Virus record (IMG/VR): IMGVR_UViG_3300036985_002656
Coordinates: 1-20,304 of that record
DNA length: 20,304 nt
Source of the DNA: a virus
Reading direction: 5' to 3' (one strand)
Part shown: in pieces, positions 411 through 8,002 of the stretch
How the letters are laid out: each line of letters opens with the position of its first letter
How positions within the stretch are numbered: position 1 is the first letter of the stretch
Program-made: the position numbers and the translations under genes
Notes under the pieces: model-generated
What the model saw: the letters and a program-made list of their open reading frames with translations, nothing else
What the model was told of the DNA's origin: nothing
Database searches by the model: none

Positions 411-1871
411 ATGTTAGATGGATTAAGTCCTTTACAGATATTACAAGCTAGGTTAATGGGAGATAGTTTGGCATTTACCAAGTATTTCTTTCAGAAGCGG
501 TTTAATAGGAGTTTTGTTGTAAATAGTCATCACGAGATTATTTGCAAGGCTATGGATAGGATATTGCGTGGAGAGTTAAAAAGGGTTTGTATAAGTATAG
601 CTCCGAGATATGGTAAGACTGAATTGGCTGTTAAGAATTTTATCGCTTTGGGATTGGCACATAATCCAAGTAGTAAATTTATTCATTTGAGTTATAGTGG
701 AAGTTTAGCGGAGGACAATAGTGAGAGTGTAAGGGATTTTATTGATAGTGAGGATTATAGTGGTATTTTCCCTTATGTGCAATTGAGTAAGAGTAGTGCT
801 AGTAAGAGTAAGTGGGCAACTACTGCGGGTGGTGGTGTTTACGCTACTGCTACTGGAGGGCAGATAACTGGATTTGGGGCTGGGGAGGTTGATAGGGATA
901 TTTTGGGTGCGATGCCTGATGAGAAGAAAAATAGCTTTGCGGGAGCAATTATTATTGATGATGCGTTAAAGCCAGACGATGCGCTTAGTGATTTGAAAAG
1001 GCAGAGGGTAAATGAAAGGTTTGAGAACACTATAAGGTCGAGAACCAATAGTAGGGATACTCCAATTATTGTAATTGGTCAAAGGTTGCACTCTAATGAT
1101 TTGATTGGGTATTTAAAGGAAACTGAGGAGGATAGGTGGGAATTTATAGATATACCTTGCATTACTGTTGATGAGTTTGGGAATGAACACGCTTTGTGGG
1201 AATTTAAGCAGACGTTGGCTGAATTGAACAATATTCGGCAAATTGACGAGAATGTATTTGAAACGCAGTACCAGCAGAACCCTCAAGACTTAAAAGGGAA
1301 GTTATTGCCGTTACAGAGCTTAAAGTTTTGGAATTTAGCTAATATTCCATTTGAGAGTATAGTTTGGAAGTTTGCAGTAGGCGATCCAGCGAATGTGGGT
1401 GGAGATTATTACTCGATACCATTTATGCACGTTGCGATAATAGAGGGAAAGCTATTATGTTTTGTAAAAGCGATAGTGCATAGCAAGGAGGGTATTGAGG
1501 TTGTTAATGATAGGATGATTGATAAAACTAGGGAGCATTTCATTGAGGAGGTGTTTTTAGAGGTTAATGGCATAGGTCTAGCTGCATACTCACTTTTAAA
1601 AAGAGATTTATCAAATACAACCCTTGTTAAGCCTTTTAACGTAACAATACCTAAAGAAGCAAGAATATTATCAAATAGTGAGTTTATTAAAAATCATTTT
1701 GTATTTGATGAACGATACAAAGAAGATTCTGAATATTCTCGTTTTATAAATCACGTTACAAGTTACGATAGAGAAAGTTCAAATTCTCACAAAAAAGATG
1801 CAATAGATAGTTTAGCAAGTGCAGCAAATATCCTAAAGATTAAATATAGAAATTTACTGTATGGTAATTAA
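411..1871 (+). CDS. terL: Phage terminase large subunit (packaging ATPase and nuclease)
   Basis: This protein is the motor that cuts concatemeric phage DNA and pumps it into the prohead through the portal. The N-terminal ATPase shows a Walker-A-like APRYGKTE (residues 64-71), a Walker B AIIIDD (179-184) and the coupling motif IGQRLHSNDL (222-231). The C-terminal RNase H-fold nuclease shows its acidic residues in GDPANVGGD (D325), FLEVNG (E384) and KKDAIDS (D463/D466). The length of 486 residues is normal. The ATG at 411 is the first in frame. Codon use changes sharply near base 1575 (about residue 389). Before it, 15 of 20 Arg codons are AGG and about 20 of 28 Glu codons are GAG; after it, 0 of 6 and 1 of 6. 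The 3' end overlaps the convergent endonuclease gene by 18 bp. Confidence 0.95.
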   Translation: MLDGLSPLQILQARLMGDSLAFTKYFFQKRFNRSFVVNSHHEIICKAMDRILRGELKRVCISIAPRYGKTELAVKNFIALGLAHNPSSKFIHLSYSGSLAEDNSESVRDFIDSEDYSGIFPYVQLSKSSASKSKWATTAGGGVYATATGGQITGFGAGEVDRDILGAMPDEKKNSFAGAIIIDDALKPDDALSDLKRQRVNERFENTIRSRTNSRDTPIIVIGQRLHSNDLIGYLKETEEDRWEFIDIPCITVDEFGNEHALWEFKQTLAELNNIRQIDENVFETQYQQNPQDLKGKLLPLQSLKFWNLANIPFESIVWKFAVGDPANVGGDYYSIPFMHVAIIEGKLLCFVKAIVHSKEGIEVVNDRMIDKTREHFIEEVFLEVNGIGLAAYSLLKRDLSNTTLVKPFNVTIPKEARILSNSEFIKNHFVFDERYKEDSEYSRFINHVTSYDRESSNSHKKDAIDSLASAANILKIKYRNLLYGN

Positions 1872-2375
1872 TGCTAATGCTTTTTGATATGCTTCGTGCG
1901 CTTCTATTTCTGTGTTAAAAGTTCCAAGATGTATTCTTTTGAATTTAATTCCAATTCTTGCTTGCCATTTACATTTTGATTTGCTCCAATTAACTCCAAT
2001 ATATTTGCTTGTACCAATTGTTTTTTTACGATGTGTATTTTCTCTTGAAGAAACAATATTTAGATTTTCAACTCGATTATCGTTTTTAATAGAGTTGATG
2101 TGGTCAATTACTAATTTTTGACCATTAGGCTTATGATTTAAAAATGATTCAGCTACAAGTTGATGAACTTTCCTCATTTTTTTAATTTTGTTCTCATCAG
2201 TTAAAGAAACAACAATGTAACCATCTTTATCAGTTTGTAGTTTAAGTAGTTTTTCTTTACAAACAAAAGGATGTAGACCTTTATTTAAAACAATCCTACT
2301 TAATGATTTTACTCTACCCACATTAGACACTTCATAAATTCCTTCGTGATTTTTAACTTCTTTCCAAATTTCCAT
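1854..2375 (-). CDS. Free-standing HNH homing endonuclease (NUMOD4 - HNH - AP2-like)
   Basis: This is a 173-residue protein with three recognisable parts. Residues 1 to about 50 are a NUMOD4 DNA-binding motif beginning MEIWKEVKNHEGIYEVSNVG. Residues 71-115 are an HNH_3 nuclease with VHQLVAESF, the metal-binding pair D91/H92 in VIDHIN, and N100/R101. Residues 122-172 are an AP2-like DNA-binding domain (YIGVNW, W137, HLGTFNTEIEAHEAY). Such proteins cut DNA site-specifically and spread their own gene into uncut relatives. It is the only minus-strand gene and sits between terminase and portal. I chose the ATG at 2375; a TTG five codons upstream lies inside a T-run and is unlikely. HNH proteins beside terminases can also serve in packaging, but the NUMOD4/AP2 build and the antisense direction favour a homing element. 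Confidence 0.9.
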   Translation of the reverse strand: MEIWKEVKNHEGIYEVSNVGRVKSLSRIVLNKGLHPFVCKEKLLKLQTDKDGYIVVSLTDENKIKKMRKVHQLVAESFLNHKPNGQKLVIDHINSIKNDNRVENLNIVSSRENTHRKKTIGTSKYIGVNWSKSKCKWQARIGIKFKRIHLGTFNTEIEAHEAYQKALALITIQ

Positions 2376-2378
2376 AAC

Positions 2379-2422
2379 AAAAAAAAACAATCCGTCAATG
2401 TTGCAGCATATCAGGATTGTTT
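2379..2422 (-). terminator. Stem-loop plus T-run directly before the endonuclease start
   Basis: Read on the minus strand, AAACAATCC (2422-2414) pairs perfectly with GGATTGTTT (2393-2385) around a 20-base loop and runs into more T residues to 2379. This has the form of a rho-independent terminator, although the stem is AT-rich and the loop long. The endonuclease ATG is only 3 bases further on. It could attenuate minus-strand transcripts, or be a leader hairpin that hides the translation start, as known for free-standing endonuclease genes of T4-like phages. The choice between these is inference. Confidence 0.5.
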
Positions 2423-2461
2423 AAATTAATATCTTTTATTTTCTAACTGCAATTAGATTTA

Positions 2462-2469
2462 CAAATATA
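2462..2469 (-). promoter_or_regulatory. Minus-strand -7 element, candidate endonuclease promoter
   Basis: The minus strand reads TATATTTG here, an exact TAnnTTTG match. A transcript would start near 2455, pass through the hairpin at 2379-2422 and enter the endonuclease gene. No TTTG lies at the right distance upstream, so support rests on the -7 box and its placement. Confidence 0.35.
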
Positions 2470-2478
2470 ATCAAACTT

Positions 2479-2512
2479 TTTGTTATTTGGTTAATAAAAT
2501 TTTATATATTTG
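2479..2512 (+). promoter_or_regulatory. Promoter for the portal / head operon
   Basis: TTTG (2479-2482) and TATATTTG (2505-2512) are separated by 22 bases. This matches the Bacteroidota -33/-7 pattern TTTG-N19-23-TAnnTTTG and is the best two-part match I found in the window. Transcription would begin near 2519, about 13 bases before the portal ATG. It would let the head genes be transcribed independently of the terminase across the inserted endonuclease gene. Confidence 0.6.
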
Positions 2513-2531
2513 TTGCAAAATATTATAATAA

Positions 2532-3794
2532 ATGGCGTGGTCGTTATTTGGTAAAAAGAAAAATTCACCGCAAGGGTTTGCAGAAGTTCAGAATGATGGA
2601 GCTTGGTTAAGCTATTTCAATCAGTATTTACAAAATGCTAATGGCGATAGGTTAATTAAGTTTGATCAGAGCCGAGCTTATGAGTTGGCTAATACTATTG
2701 CTGAGATATTTATACCAATTGATGCTATTGCTGAAAGGGCAGCTAATATCAAATATGATATTATTGATACTACTACGAAAGAGATAATTGTACCAACTGG
2801 TAATTTAAAGAGAATTATTGACAGTCCTAATCCTTTGGAGAAATTCTCGGATATAATTTATCAAGATGTATTTAGTAAGTTGAGTGATGGGAATAGCTAT
2901 GTTTACACTAAGACTGCTGAAAGCATTGTTAATCCTACTTATGACAACATAAGTAATATTTGGGTGTTGCGACCTAATTTAACAACTCCAATTTTAAGGA
3001 AGCAAATATCGAATCCATTTTTAATGAAAACCATTGGGGATTTGGTAGATTATTACAAGACTTTCTTTTTTTATGAGCATAAGTTACAACCGAGATATGT
3101 GTTACATAACACGGTGTTGGGGATAACTCAAACTGGTACTGGTAAAAGTCCATTGTTTGCTTGTGAGAAAAACATTAATAATATTTTGGCAGTTTATCAA
3201 GCGAGGTATAATGTGTATGCTAAGAATGGTAATGCTGGGATTTTGGCTAAAGCTCCAGTTGGTGGTGGTGGTGCTAGTCTGCAAGAAGCGATTGATCCGA
3301 TTACTAGAGATACGATGCTTAAGGATTTGCAAGACAGAAATGGATTGACAGGAGATAAAAACTTTATCGGAATGTCGAGTGTGCCTTTGCAGTTCATTAA
3401 AACTTTGGGTACGATTAAGGAGTTAGAGCCATTTGATGAAACATTAGAGAACGCTATTAAGATTGCTGGGGTGTTTGGGGTTAATAAAGAGCTGATACCA
3501 AAGAAAGACAATGCTACTTTTAGTAATCAAATGATTGCAGAGAAAAGTTTTTGGCAAAATGTGGTTAAGGGTACGGCTTATGATGTAGCCAATTCATTGA
3601 ACAAAATTTATTACTTACCAGACACTTGGTCTTTTGTTCCTAACTTTAGTGGTATTGAAGCATTGCAAGAGGATAAAAAGGCTGGATTTGAAGCTGATGG
3701 GTTGTTAATTGACAACTTAGACAAATTAAGAGCAAATGGTATTGATATGACAGAGGCATATTTAACAATTCAAGAGAGATACAATGGAAAATAA
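2532..3794 (+). CDS. HK97-family portal protein
   Basis: This is the dodecameric ring at the special capsid vertex through which DNA enters and leaves, and the docking site for terminase and connector. At 420 residues it has the usual length of HK97-type portals. Visible family features are: the N-terminal helix with IPIDAIAERAANIKYDIID (61-79); PLEKFSDIIYQDVFSKLSDG followed by NSYVYTKT (101-128); the GKSPLFACEKNI segment (204-215); and KDNATFSNQMIAEKSFWQNV (325-344) near the C-terminal clip and crown region. It overlaps the protease gene by 11 bp, so translational coupling is likely. Arg and Glu codon use is mixed, between the G-ending style of the early terminase and the A-ending style of later genes. 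Confidence 0.93.
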   Translation: MAWSLFGKKKNSPQGFAEVQNDGAWLSYFNQYLQNANGDRLIKFDQSRAYELANTIAEIFIPIDAIAERAANIKYDIIDTTTKEIIVPTGNLKRIIDSPNPLEKFSDIIYQDVFSKLSDGNSYVYTKTAESIVNPTYDNISNIWVLRPNLTTPILRKQISNPFLMKTIGDLVDYYKTFFFYEHKLQPRYVLHNTVLGITQTGTGKSPLFACEKNINNILAVYQARYNVYAKNGNAGILAKAPVGGGGASLQEAIDPITRDTMLKDLQDRNGLTGDKNFIGMSSVPLQFIKTLGTIKELEPFDETLENAIKIAGVFGVNKELIPKKDNATFSNQMIAEKSFWQNVVKGTAYDVANSLNKIYYLPDTWSFVPNFSGIEALQEDKKAGFEADGLLIDNLDKLRANGIDMTEAYLTIQERYNGK

Positions 3795-4472: not shown

Positions 4473-5732
4473 ATGGAAACATTAAATTTAAGAAGTGCGC
4501 TAGAAAAAAATGGCGCAACATTGGATGAAAACCAATTGAAGTTCGTTTCGGCTATTGAAAACGAAATGAACGAAAGAGCAAAAAAACAAGAAGAAGCGTA
4601 TTCAGCATCTTTATCAGAAGCGTTAAGAAGCGTACTTGGAGCTCAAGAGAAAAATGAGCAAGGACAAACAGTAACAATTGCAGATCAATTGAGAAATTTG
4701 GCAGAAGGCTTAGAGAAAGTTGAGAAAAACAATGTTAGACAATTGTCTAATGTAGAAAAATTCCAACTTCGTAAAATGGTAAAAGAGCAACACAAAGATA
4801 TTTGTGAGGCTATCAGAAATGGAAATGACTTAGAGATTACTTTCAACGCAAAACGTGCTGCTGCAATTTATACTGCTGCTACTGCTGTTGCAAATGATAC
4901 TGGTGTTTTATTGCCATTGAATGAGAACTTTGAGTTTGAAAGCGAAATTTCTAAAATTCGTTACCCAGAGAATTTCATCTTAGATGTAATCTCTAACAGA
5001 CAAGTTGCAAGAGTTCCACAACAAATCATCAAAAACGAACAAGCTACTGCTGAGGGAGCTGTTGCTTTAGTTGCTGAGGGTGGTACTAAGCCATTAGTAT
5101 CTGATACATTCTTGAGAACACTTACTTTGCGTAAGAAATATGCTGCTCACATTGAGTGGACTGAGGAGTTTGAAGTTGACAACGAATTGTTGTACAATGA
5201 AATCCTTATGATGTTTGAAGAAAAAGTAATCAGATTTTGGAATAACGGATTGATTGGAACAATTGTTTCAAATGGTACTGCTTACACTACTTCTGTAATG
5301 GATGACACTTTGGTTATTCCAGACAACGGACTTGCGGTTATTGCTGCACAATCTGTAATCAACGGAATGAACTTTAACGCTGATTTGGTTCTTATGCACC
5401 CAAGCGATATTGTAACTACAATGTTCACACAAGATACAGAGGGTAATTCAAGATTATTGCCTTATATGCAAAATGGTTCAATCAACGGAATGAGAGTTGT
5501 TTCTTCAAACGCAATTACTTTAGGTACTGCAATCGTTATGGATAGTTCAATCTACCGTGAAATGCACTCTGAATTTATCTTACGTTTTGGTACTTACAAC
5601 GACCAATTCATCAAGAATCAAAAATCAGCAGTTGGGGAAGTTTATTCTATCTTAAGAGTGGCTAAAAACAACTTACCTGGAGCGATGGCATTTAGTCTTG
5701 CAACAGTAAGAGCTGCATTATTGAAACCGTAA
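4473..5732 (+). CDS. HK97-fold major capsid protein
   Basis: This protein forms the icosahedral shell. Residues 1 to about 110 are charged and helical, and match the delta (scaffolding) domain that the upstream protease removes. A smaller, less charged stretch follows (VANDTGVLLPLN, about 139-150), and then the HK97 core: SNRQVARVPQ, EGGTKPLVSDTFLRTLTLRK, AAHIEWTEEFEVDNELL, the A-domain segment LVLMHPSDIVTTMF and MRVVSSNAITLGTAIVMD. The 419-residue length fits a precursor with a cleaved domain. It starts 11 bases after the protease gene behind an A-rich leader. Codon use is A-ending, as expected for a highly expressed gene in an AT-rich phage. The exact cleavage site cannot be read from the sequence. 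Confidence 0.94.
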   Translation: METLNLRSALEKNGATLDENQLKFVSAIENEMNERAKKQEEAYSASLSEALRSVLGAQEKNEQGQTVTIADQLRNLAEGLEKVEKNNVRQLSNVEKFQLRKMVKEQHKDICEAIRNGNDLEITFNAKRAAAIYTAATAVANDTGVLLPLNENFEFESEISKIRYPENFILDVISNRQVARVPQQIIKNEQATAEGAVALVAEGGTKPLVSDTFLRTLTLRKKYAAHIEWTEEFEVDNELLYNEILMMFEEKVIRFWNNGLIGTIVSNGTAYTTSVMDDTLVIPDNGLAVIAAQSVINGMNFNADLVLMHPSDIVTTMFTQDTEGNSRLLPYMQNGSINGMRVVSSNAITLGTAIVMDSSIYREMHSEFILRFGTYNDQFIKNQKSAVGEVYSILRVAKNNLPGAMAFSLATVRAALLKP

Positions 5733-5749
5733 TTTTAAAACTCTAATAT

Positions 5750-5971
5750 ATGTCAAATTTTAGTATCAAAGAAGAAGAAGCAAAAATTGTAGGAACTGCT
5801 ACATTCGATAAAGTATCAGATTACAAAGCAGTAGACTTAGATGGAAACACTTATTTACTACACAAAGTTCACGCTGATAAGTTAATCGCAAAAGGGTTAG
5901 CAAAATTGGCTAAGGATGTGAAAGTGAAAGAGAAAACTCCAGAAATGACTTCAACCGTAATAGAGAAATAA
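5750..5971 (+). CDS. Small post-capsid protein of unknown function
   Basis: This encodes 73 residues, with the core DYKAVDLDGNTYLLHKVHAD followed by KLIAKGLAKLAKDVKVK and a Lys/Glu-rich tail. There is no membrane segment or signal peptide. It lies 17 bases after the capsid gene and its stop overlaps the next start (TAATG). That position often holds a decoration, head-completion or capsid-accessory protein. I do not recognise the family; a virion role is inferred only from context. Confidence 0.7.
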   Translation: MSNFSIKEEEAKIVGTATFDKVSDYKAVDLDGNTYLLHKVHADKLIAKGLAKLAKDVKVKEKTPEMTSTVIEK

Positions 5972-6606
5972 TGATAATAAATGCTCAATACTTTCAGACT
6001 AAGGAATTATACATTCCAAATGCTGTTGCACAACCGAGTATCGGAAGTGTATTACCGACTGCGACGACACAGTTAGCTCAAGAGATTGAAAGTATTGAGC
6101 AATCATTGTTACTTGATATTTTAGGGTATGAACAACTACAAGAGTTAAATGCACAATTTGAACCGAATGGAGATTGGATAGCAACTCCTTTGCAAAAATG
6201 GGTTGACTTAGTTGATGGAAAAGATGATTGGAAAGGATTAAGATACACGATTGGTACAAAGAAAATTAGCTTAATTGCTTATTATGTTTTCTTTTATTAT
6301 TTGGGTATGGATTTTCAAACATACTCTACAACTGGTATGCAAATACCTAAAGCGGAAAATTCAGTAATGAATGATCCGAGCGTTAAGCAAGTTTCAGTTT
6401 GGAACAAGTTTGTAATGATGTATGTAGGTAGAGGAATGAATAATAATGGCGACGTTTCAACAAGTTGGAATGGTCAGTTTATTAGTTTTGGCAACACAAA
6501 TATAGGGAATGAAGTTACTTTGTATGAGTATTTAAGCACTAACAATGGTGTTTACGATATTAGTTACTTTAGAAACAAAACTCCTTTAAATTACTTTGGT
6601 TTATGA
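5971..6606 (+). CDS. Probable head-tail connector (gp6-like adaptor)
   Basis: A 211-residue, mostly helical protein. The N-terminal part (residues 1-120) contains IPNAVAQPSIGSVLPTA, an acidic helix QLAQEIESIEQSLLLDILGY and an aromatic helix ISLIAYYVFFYYLGMDFQTY. This build (N-terminal helices, then a 'YYVFFYYL' helix) resembles helical proteins found after the capsid gene in Bacteroidota phages and taken to be head-tail adaptors. Its place after the capsid gene and before the tail genes agrees. It overlaps its upstream neighbour by one base and its downstream neighbour by four (ATGA). The C-terminal half, rich in Asn, Gly and Thr, could contact the tail. The assignment is by position and general build, not by a catalytic motif. 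Confidence 0.6.
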   Translation: MIINAQYFQTKELYIPNAVAQPSIGSVLPTATTQLAQEIESIEQSLLLDILGYEQLQELNAQFEPNGDWIATPLQKWVDLVDGKDDWKGLRYTIGTKKISLIAYYVFFYYLGMDFQTYSTTGMQIPKAENSVMNDPSVKQVSVWNKFVMMYVGRGMNNNGDVSTSWNGQFISFGNTNIGNEVTLYEYLSTNNGVYDISYFRNKTPLNYFGL

Positions 6607-7084: not shown

Positions 7085-8002
7085 ATGGCAATTATAACAG
7101 GTGTGGATTGTACCACAAGCAGATTTGGCAGCGGATTAGAAGCGTGTCAAGCAATTGAAGGATTACCAAACGGTGTAATCTTAGTTCCAAAAGGATGGTC
7201 TTTAGAGAAAGCGACAGACACTTTCGACAAGGCTTATGTTCAAGAGCAATGTCAACTAGGGAATTTCATTCCATTAGTAGGTTGTTTTGAAATGGTATCT
7301 GAAACTCCAGATGCTACAACGCAAGAAAGTCAATCAGGACTTATGGAAGTAGTAAGACAAGGGAAACCAACTTTTACCGCTACATTCAAACAAGGATTAG
7401 CTTTCCAAAAGATTGCTTACTCTTACAACTCTTACCAACAATACGATACATTGATTACTTACGAAACTGGGTATATCAAATGTGCTGAAAGTGTTGATGG
7501 TACGCAAATCAAAGGGTTGACAACTGGTATGTTAAACACTAATGGTTATACTGAAAACAATGGTACTACTTCTGCTTCAACTATCTTGAAGTTTCAAGTT
7601 ACAAATCCATTTGAGTACAATCAATATGTAAACCTTTTAACTGATTTGGATTTTGATCCAAACTCTGAGTTGTTCGGTATTACTGATGTAAACATTGTAG
7701 GTCGTGCAGATGCTTCTGAGGCTAAAGTTTATATCAAACCAACTTGGAAATGGAATGACTTGTTTACAATTACAGGATTGGCTGCTGCTAACTTAAGACT
7801 TACAGTTGGTGGGGTTACTAATGCAATTGTAGGAGCTATTACTTACAACGCAACTACTAAAGAGTATGCTATTACTCCAACGGCTACTTTGGTTGCTGCT
7901 GATGTAGTAACAGTAACTTTAGCTGATGGAGCTGTTAATACTGCTAAGGTTGGTAACAAATTTTATAGCGGTACTACTGGAAATGTAGTAACGGTAGCAT
8001 AA
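7085..8002 (+). CDS. Major tail (tube) protein with C-terminal Ig-like domain
   Basis: Hexameric rings of this protein would stack to form the tail tube. The 305 residues divide into a beta-rich N-terminal tube domain (1 to about 225) and a Thr/Ala/Gly-rich C-terminal domain (about 228-305, beginning FTITGLAAANLRLTVGG) with the short alternating strands of an Ig-like fold. Such domains are frequent add-ons of tail-tube proteins and project outward, where they may bind cell-surface sugars. Four Cys residues are spaced through the first 70 residues (TGVDC, EAC, EQC, VGC). The gene starts 8 bases after the probable terminator gene and is followed by a transcription terminator, so it closes the head/early-tail block. 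The codon use suggests high expression. Confidence 0.75.
   Translation: MAIITGVDCTTSRFGSGLEACQAIEGLPNGVILVPKGWSLEKATDTFDKAYVQEQCQLGNFIPLVGCFEMVSETPDATTQESQSGLMEVVRQGKPTFTATFKQGLAFQKIAYSYNSYQQYDTLITYETGYIKCAESVDGTQIKGLTTGMLNTNGYTENNGTTSASTILKFQVTNPFEYNQYVNLLTDLDFDPNSELFGITDVNIVGRADASEAKVYIKPTWKWNDLFTITGLAAANLRLTVGGVTNAIVGAITYNATTKEYAITPTATLVAADVVTVTLADGAVNTAKVGNKFYSGTTGNVVTVA

Follow-up and report, generated by a model that had tools for sequence, protein, structure and literature searches.

The terminase large subunit gene (terL) of the window, i.e., of the whole 20,304-nucleotide stretch of viral DNA analysed here (IMG/VR virus record IMGVR_UViG_3300036985_002656, positions 1 to 20,304), changes its codon usage abruptly before its 3′ end, where a convergent gene for an HNH endonuclease (HNH1) is located. 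The question is whether the end of terL and the endonuclease gene came to this genome together and, if so, as what kind of unit. Coordinates of the relevant features are collected in Table 1.

Table 1. Features of the terL–portal locus (window coordinates).
Feature	Position	Strand	Remarks
terL, native part	411–1577	+	ATPase domain, nuclease motifs I (D325) and II (E384)
Replacement tail of terL brought by E1, stop codon included	1578–1871	+	contains nuclease motif III (D463)
HNH1 gene	1854–2375	−	173 aa; NUMOD4, HNH_3 and AP2-like; convergent to terL
HNH1 RNA leader	2373–2468	−	match to model R1, 111.8 bits (the window is itself a row of the model); alignments
Terminator-like leader hairpin 2	2385–2422	−	T-run just before ATG
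Leader hairpin 1	2442–2457	−	
TTATATTTG in HNH1 leader	2462–2470	−	putative promoter-like sequence
Remnant of displaced native terL end	2479–2494	+	16 bp, final codons and stop
Backbone right of E1	2495–3794	+	portal leader and portal gene (2532–3794; Pfam Phage_portal, 7e-20)
Promoter-like TATATATTTG in portal leader	2503–2512		

Codon usage and gene content of the terL–portal locus

The identity of terL follows from a PHROG profile match (4e-82) and from a predicted fold that matches 8dgc, T4 gp17 and other terminases; its motif residues are invariant in a structure alignment of 28 selected relatives. The HNH1 product, which starts at MEIWKE, has Pfam matches to NUMOD4 (1.6e-13) and HNH_3 (8e-9) above the cut-offs and to AP2 (9e-7) below its cut-off, matches a PHROG of HNH endonucleases, and in the PDB matches the sequence of the HNH homing endonuclease 1u3e (2e-8). 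The initial annotation had placed a convergent HNH gene beside the codon-usage break, and HNH1 and the 3′ end of terL share 18 bp.

The codon counts given there are reproduced exactly: before the break, AGG is used for 15 of 20 Arg and GAG for 20 of 28 Glu, and after it for 0 of 6 and 1 of 6, respectively. The same shift is seen for AAG (17/24 to 2/9) and TTG (15/33 to 0/10), and GC3 falls from 0.36 to 0.12. A change-point scan comparing G- with A-ending codons, with shuffles made within amino acids, placed the break at 1584 (G-ending codons 101/167 before, 3/39 after; likelihood ratio 40.3; reached in 0 of 1000 shuffles), and comparison with relatives gave a junction at 1577/1578, in agreement with the proposed position near 1575. 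The part after the break had been described as the last third of the gene; it does include motif III (KKDAIDS), but its 97 codons make up only about a fifth.

The scan covered the window and 36 other loci, partial terL genes and those of less than 60% identity being excluded. Some break at p < 0.05 was also detected in 11 other terL sequences among the 37, mostly elsewhere in the gene, and the one at position 858 of L017 was likewise not reached in any of 1000 shuffles. The codon test by itself would thus be weak, and the decision comes from comparison with relatives. Within the close clade (the window, L001–L012 and L029), p < 0.05 was obtained for the window and L001 only, both of which carry HNH1 (L005, p = 0.055). 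Outside this clade, L033, which matches neither of the two HNH genes described below, has a break in the opposite direction at 1584 (G-ending codons 27/161 to 18/37, p = 0.001), perhaps an old replacement.

Relatives of terL were found at 76 loci in a scan of viral contigs, and HNH and portal genes were placed by tblastn. Among the 13 close relatives, L001 carries an HNH1 homologue (95% amino acid identity to that of the window), and L010, L011 and L029 have a different HNH gene (51% amino acid identity) at the same site, the one in L011 being interrupted by the contig end. In eight others (L002, L003, L004, L006–L009 and L012), terL and portal are separated by 39–41 bp with no gene between them; none of these eight shows the break, which is what the initial annotation expected of relatives without the endonuclease gene. 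HNH1 is therefore present at one site in the window and L001, while this site is empty in eight of the 13 close relatives. By this distribution and by its domain set, HNH1 is predicted to be a free-standing NUMOD4-HNH homing endonuclease gene.

Other inserts occupy the same gap elsewhere. In L005 it holds a glycosyltransferase-like gene (named by sequence appearance only), and a 315-aa ORF of this appearance lies between terL and portal in L005, L020 (shortened by the contig), L022 and L042. The TerL of L046 contains an in-frame insertion of about 300 aa, from about position 6360, exactly at motif III; it is called intein-like on the basis of its ends (DDA/C...N/C).

Limits and divergence of the E1 and E2 blocks

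The block that we call E1 extends over 1578–2478 and consists of the terL tail, the endonuclease gene and its leader. Nucleotide identity between the window and L002 is 96, 94 and 92% over 411–1000, 1001–1300 and 1301–1577, drops to 69% over 1578–1785 and returns to 96% in portal. Compared to L001, the window is 95, 92 and 91% identical upstream and 99, 94, 96 and 97% inside E1. The tail segment 1578–1785, 99% identical between the window and L001, is only 69–73% identical to those of L002, L003 and L007 and about 70% identical to the eight non-carriers. L001, in turn, is 96–98% identical to the uninvaded L002 outside E1 and 68–78% in the tail; L001 can thus be described as an L002-like genome carrying E1. 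Backbone-specific bases in the right flank are like L003 in the window and like L002 in L001.

The left junction lies five codons past the invariant motif-II glutamate E384, and the tail joins the native 5′ part of terL in frame. On the right, a 16-mer that forms the end of terL in each of the eight uninvaded relatives is found beyond the element in the window, L001 and L010, and with one mismatch in L029. Since this native end stands to the right of the HNH leader, the native tail has been displaced and lost except for this remnant. No such remnant was found beside other terL–portal inserts at the five loci checked (L005, L013, L022, L034 and L042). Both the left junction and the 16-bp remnant of E1 are identical in two different backbones.

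The second HNH gene lies in a block of the same design, E2, present in L010 and L029. Its left junction is at 1791, two codons before the motif-III residue D463, so that the junctions fall at conserved nuclease motifs, II for E1 and III for E2. L010 is 97–99% identical to L007 up to 1785, 70% identical in the final stretch of terL and 100% identical from 2478 on (about 155 columns without a difference). L010 and L029, 84–87% and 79% identical outside E2, are 99, 96 and 100% identical inside. The overlap between the HNH gene and the 3′ end of terL measures 18 bases in E1 and 15 in E2, which ties the endonuclease gene to the tail. In L001, some departures from the window at the terL end (1786–1868) are E2-type bases, which suggests that E1 and E2 may have exchanged sequence.

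Synonymous divergence sets the blocks apart from their backbones. Between the window and L001, synonymous differences number 6/61 in the tail, 12/104 in HNH1 and 76/229 in the upstream backbone, i.e., significantly fewer inside E1 (Fisher p = 1.9e-4 for the tail and 2.5e-5 for HNH1), and the corresponding rates are 0.09–0.11 inside and 0.33 outside. For the two copies of E2 the counts are 1/17 (tail), 10/89 (HNH) and 132/239 (backbone). This contrast is stronger evidence for a separate history of the tail than are trees.

Body and tail trees do differ, in line with the earlier claim that the end of terL has a different history from the ATPase part. The near copies L011, L031 and L037 were omitted from them. 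In the body tree, the window, L001 and L002 are grouped (98/99), with L001 and L002 nested within (100/98); in the tail tree, for which 288 columns were available, a branch of 0.56 sets the window and L001 apart from the rest (100/100). For this short tail, AU tests did not reject a clade of the window, L001 and L002 (p = 0.156) or a position of the window and L001 inside the close clade (p = 0.474), but did reject a grouping of L010 with L007 (p = 0.004). With the body, a close clade without the window and L001 was rejected (p = 0.001). In search of the donor, viral_contigs was scanned twice for exact DNA matches to tail patterns; one scan gave no match and the other a single match, the L001 contig.

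Joint arrival of the terL 3′ end, the endonuclease gene and perhaps the intergenic region, as proposed in the initial annotation, is supported, with the intergenic region included up to 2478. The proposal can be refined. Since left and right limits are common to different backbones, E1 is a defined unit and, very probably, one with its own divergent gene end rather than a one-off conversion tract. Put differently, E1 is very probably a homing element with a free-standing HNH gene, and a diverged version of the final 97 terL codons moves along with it. The computed support for such a block consists of the two backbones, the common left junction, the common right remnant and a synonymous divergence lower than that of the backbones. 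Counted against a fixed unit are the third HNH locus described below (E3 in L138), which lacks a divergent gene end, the unlike tails of L168 and L190, the AU result for the short E1 tail, which leaves the backbone grouping unrejected (p = 0.156), and the fact that only two genomes carry E1.

Three other explanations were weighed. Ordinary co-conversion, in which a terL–portal HNH gene arrived by a single homing event from a distant phage, the tail being the stretch copied on that occasion and a special unit being superfluous, is rather unlikely. Co-conversion around the cut sites of phage endonucleases is established, as described in PMC2988022, and the small number of E1 carriers and the chance-level codon matches between tail and native sequence would both agree with it. 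It does not, however, predict equal left and right limits in two backbones, seen for E1 and again for E2, and if an HNH gene had simply been inserted past the stop codon and its flanks copied, no native terL remnant would lie beyond it.

It is very improbable that the tail was driven by selection to differ, avoiding cutting and recombination as in engineered home-and-rescue drives. The tail proteins of the window and of L002, L003 and L007 are 88–90% identical and their synonymous sites are saturated (pS 0.87–0.96; 1.00 between L001 and L002), which speaks for such recoding. Yet the number of codon matches to the native tail equals the chance expectation obtained by shuffling codons within amino acids, both for the window and L001 (nine close relatives compared, the result being the same for each) and for E2 (eight compared); directed recoding was therefore rejected, and long separate descent suffices. 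The tail thus resembles a terL lineage that has long been separate and probably evolved under purifying selection, not one selected to differ.

Finally, the HNH1 protein might be a packaging partner of the terminase, the tail having co-evolved with it or shifted in composition for expression. This we find barely credible. In Skunavirus, an HNH gene is always present between terL and portal and is read as a packaging part, according to PMC12724721; HNH1 differs in this respect from the universal Skunavirus protein HrdP, to which, in the same text, a packaging role is given. The conserved presence expected of a packaging-associated HNH gene is not observed, since nine of the 13 close relatives have no HNH gene at the site (the eight empty sites and L005, with its glycosyltransferase-like gene). 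In addition, the domain set and the nearest PDB match of HNH1 are those of homing endonucleases, and the change in the tail is sharp at one base and affects mostly synonymous sites.

Proposed spread and known counterparts

As a homing element with its own gene end, E1 would spread as follows. A carrier and a non-carrier, whose host is probably one of the Bacteroidota, would coinfect one cell, and the endonuclease would cut intact terL at what we infer to be its target, the motif-II codons. Since the native tail to the right of the cut would pair poorly with the donor, the recipient end would be resected until homology is reached at the far edge, i.e., in the last terL codons, the intergenic region and portal. 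Repair would then copy the tail and the endonuclease gene together. The new tail would keep the terminase working and at the same time break the target, making the carrier immune. E2 may use the same process with its other HNH protein at motif III. For free-standing phage endonucleases, resection has to extend as far as homologous sequence on either side of the endonuclease gene, and codons of critical residues are targets of many of these enzymes (both from PMC2988022).

The closest known kind is the carboxy-terminus-carrying mobile ORFs of fungal mitochondria, of which E1 would be a phage counterpart. Mobile ORFs with foreign carboxy-termini are described in PMC3630166 for Glomus atp6, atp9, cox2 and nad3 and for Allomyces macrogynus atp6. 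There, too, an endonuclease ORF brings a divergent 3′ part of the host gene that takes the place of the native end by in-frame fusion; what it displaces persists downstream, whole or in part, and beside E1 only the last 16 bp of it are left. Divergence is also similar, the inserted C-termini being 64–81% identical at the nucleotide level and the native ones 91–98% (PMC3630166). Unlike the mitochondrial ORFs as presented there, E1 belongs to a phage, has an HNH enzyme and not one of the LAGLIDADG or GIY-YIG type, and has a convergent endonuclease gene with its own leader RNA. Thus, E1 works like a mitochondrial mobile ORF, but, being viral and HNH-based, is not classed as a member.

Free-standing endonucleases of T4-like phages share with E1 a stand-alone gene beside an essential gene; in E1, unlike in the co-conversion outlined in the accessible part of PMC2988022, a fixed diverged gene end moves with equal limits in different backbones. 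HNH-type genes often adjoin terminase genes in phages, and a replaced gene end is not reported for them in the available parts of PMC10448857 and PMC12724721. An engineered home-and-rescue gene drive likewise combines a nuclease acting on an essential gene with a working replacement; as described in the available part of PMC7968924, it is engineered and Cas9-based, whereas E1 is natural and directed recoding was not detected in it. A phage element carrying a gene end of its own was not found in the open-access literature searched. If E1 behaves as proposed, a selfish nuclease can occupy an essential gene of a phage without doing harm, and a mitochondrial oddity and engineered gene drives are brought into one frame. 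Essential phage genes would become mosaics at exact joints, which may mislead phage trees based on terL. With uninvaded, E1 and E2 genomes as a natural set of matched backbones, target choice, immunity and resection can be put to the test.

HNH genes at other loci and their leader RNA

HNH3, the third such HNH gene and one with the same leader, is located at 5638–6042 (minus strand) of L138 and defines element E3. No divergent gene end was found alongside it in L138, where it adjoins a homologue of the window gene at 7085–8002, and E3 was therefore ruled out as a further tail-carrying case.

In L091 and L157, a convergent HNH gene overlaps the end of a gene whose product resembles a head protein (named by sequence appearance). 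L157 and the HNH-less L158 are 85% identical in the body of this gene and 64% in its last 66 bases (96 and 73% at the amino acid level); compared to the HNH-bearing L168 and L170, L157 is 72 and 69% identical in the body and 74 and 77% in the tail. HNH matches of several kinds occur at the end of this gene in nine of 34 related loci. L168 and L190 have HNH genes that are 98–100% identical in most bins and tails that are 65% identical, so the link between tail and HNH gene can break. What this locus supports is that gene ends turn over where HNH genes adjoin them, and not that the two form a fixed unit; it would make a weaker third case. Throughout L157–L190 the 3′ end of the head-protein-like gene is a hotspot for convergent HNH genes of several kinds, and in L160, L162, L163 and L187 it is followed by other long convergent ORFs that resemble DNA methyltransferase.

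The 96-nt leader of HNH1 recurs with hardly any change ahead of the HNH genes in E2, E3 and L142, although their proteins are about 50% identical. The loops of its two hairpins are complementary (UUGCAG and CUGCAA). A scan with a leader pattern retrieved 12 contig stretches, and an ORF starting with MEIWK or MEVWK follows in all 12, two of these ORFs being short (36 aa in L153; at the contig end in L135). Since the pattern fixed both loop sequences, loop invariance among its matches is no evidence of pairing; two stem pairs vary on both sides.

Leaders were also compared at 41 loci, after matches starting past query residue 25 had been skipped; 16 of them, identical leaders being counted once, have a terminator-like hairpin before the ATG. 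The leaders of L146 and L147, which were found by protein and not by pattern (L149 is a copy), differ in their loop sequences, and these loops, too, are complementary to each other over seven bases, a pairing reached in 1/500 and 2/500 shuffles, respectively. The six-base pairing of the main family was reached in 14–54 of 500 shuffles, the five-base pairing of L096 in 79 of 500, and in seven of the 16 leaders (L088, L089, L091, L099, L110, L113 and L124) this test revealed no loop pairing. The fold of the window's single leader strand was no better than that of shuffles (z −0.51). Rfam contained no match to the leader at the gathering threshold; three sub-threshold matches with E up to 5 are chance-like. 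None of 395 bacterial genomes from the phylum that includes Epilithonimonas (L080) contained the leader, nor did L080's own genome (0/1), a search that had no positive control and shows little.

It is possible that this leader RNA is a new type of regulator for homing endonucleases. In L146, a similar leader precedes a gene whose sequence is unlike that of an HNH gene, and the design may therefore be a general phage control element. On a wider and more tentative view, which we put forward as a possibility, phages hold a natural class of home-and-rescue HNH elements that target active-site codons of essential packaging or head genes, each with a gene end that keeps function and blocks recutting. 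Such elements would be rivals for a single gene, each with its own cut point (motif II versus motif III), and a common leader RNA switch, absent from Rfam, would set their expression through pairing of the upstream loop with the terminator loop before the start codon.

The leader also occurs at L149 and L150–L156. A different recurring leader is present before the portal gene in L005, L013, L015, L016, L025, L033, L036, L039 and L042; it consists of promoter-like TATATTTG, a small hairpin and a terminator-like hairpin whose T-run lies just before the portal start codon.
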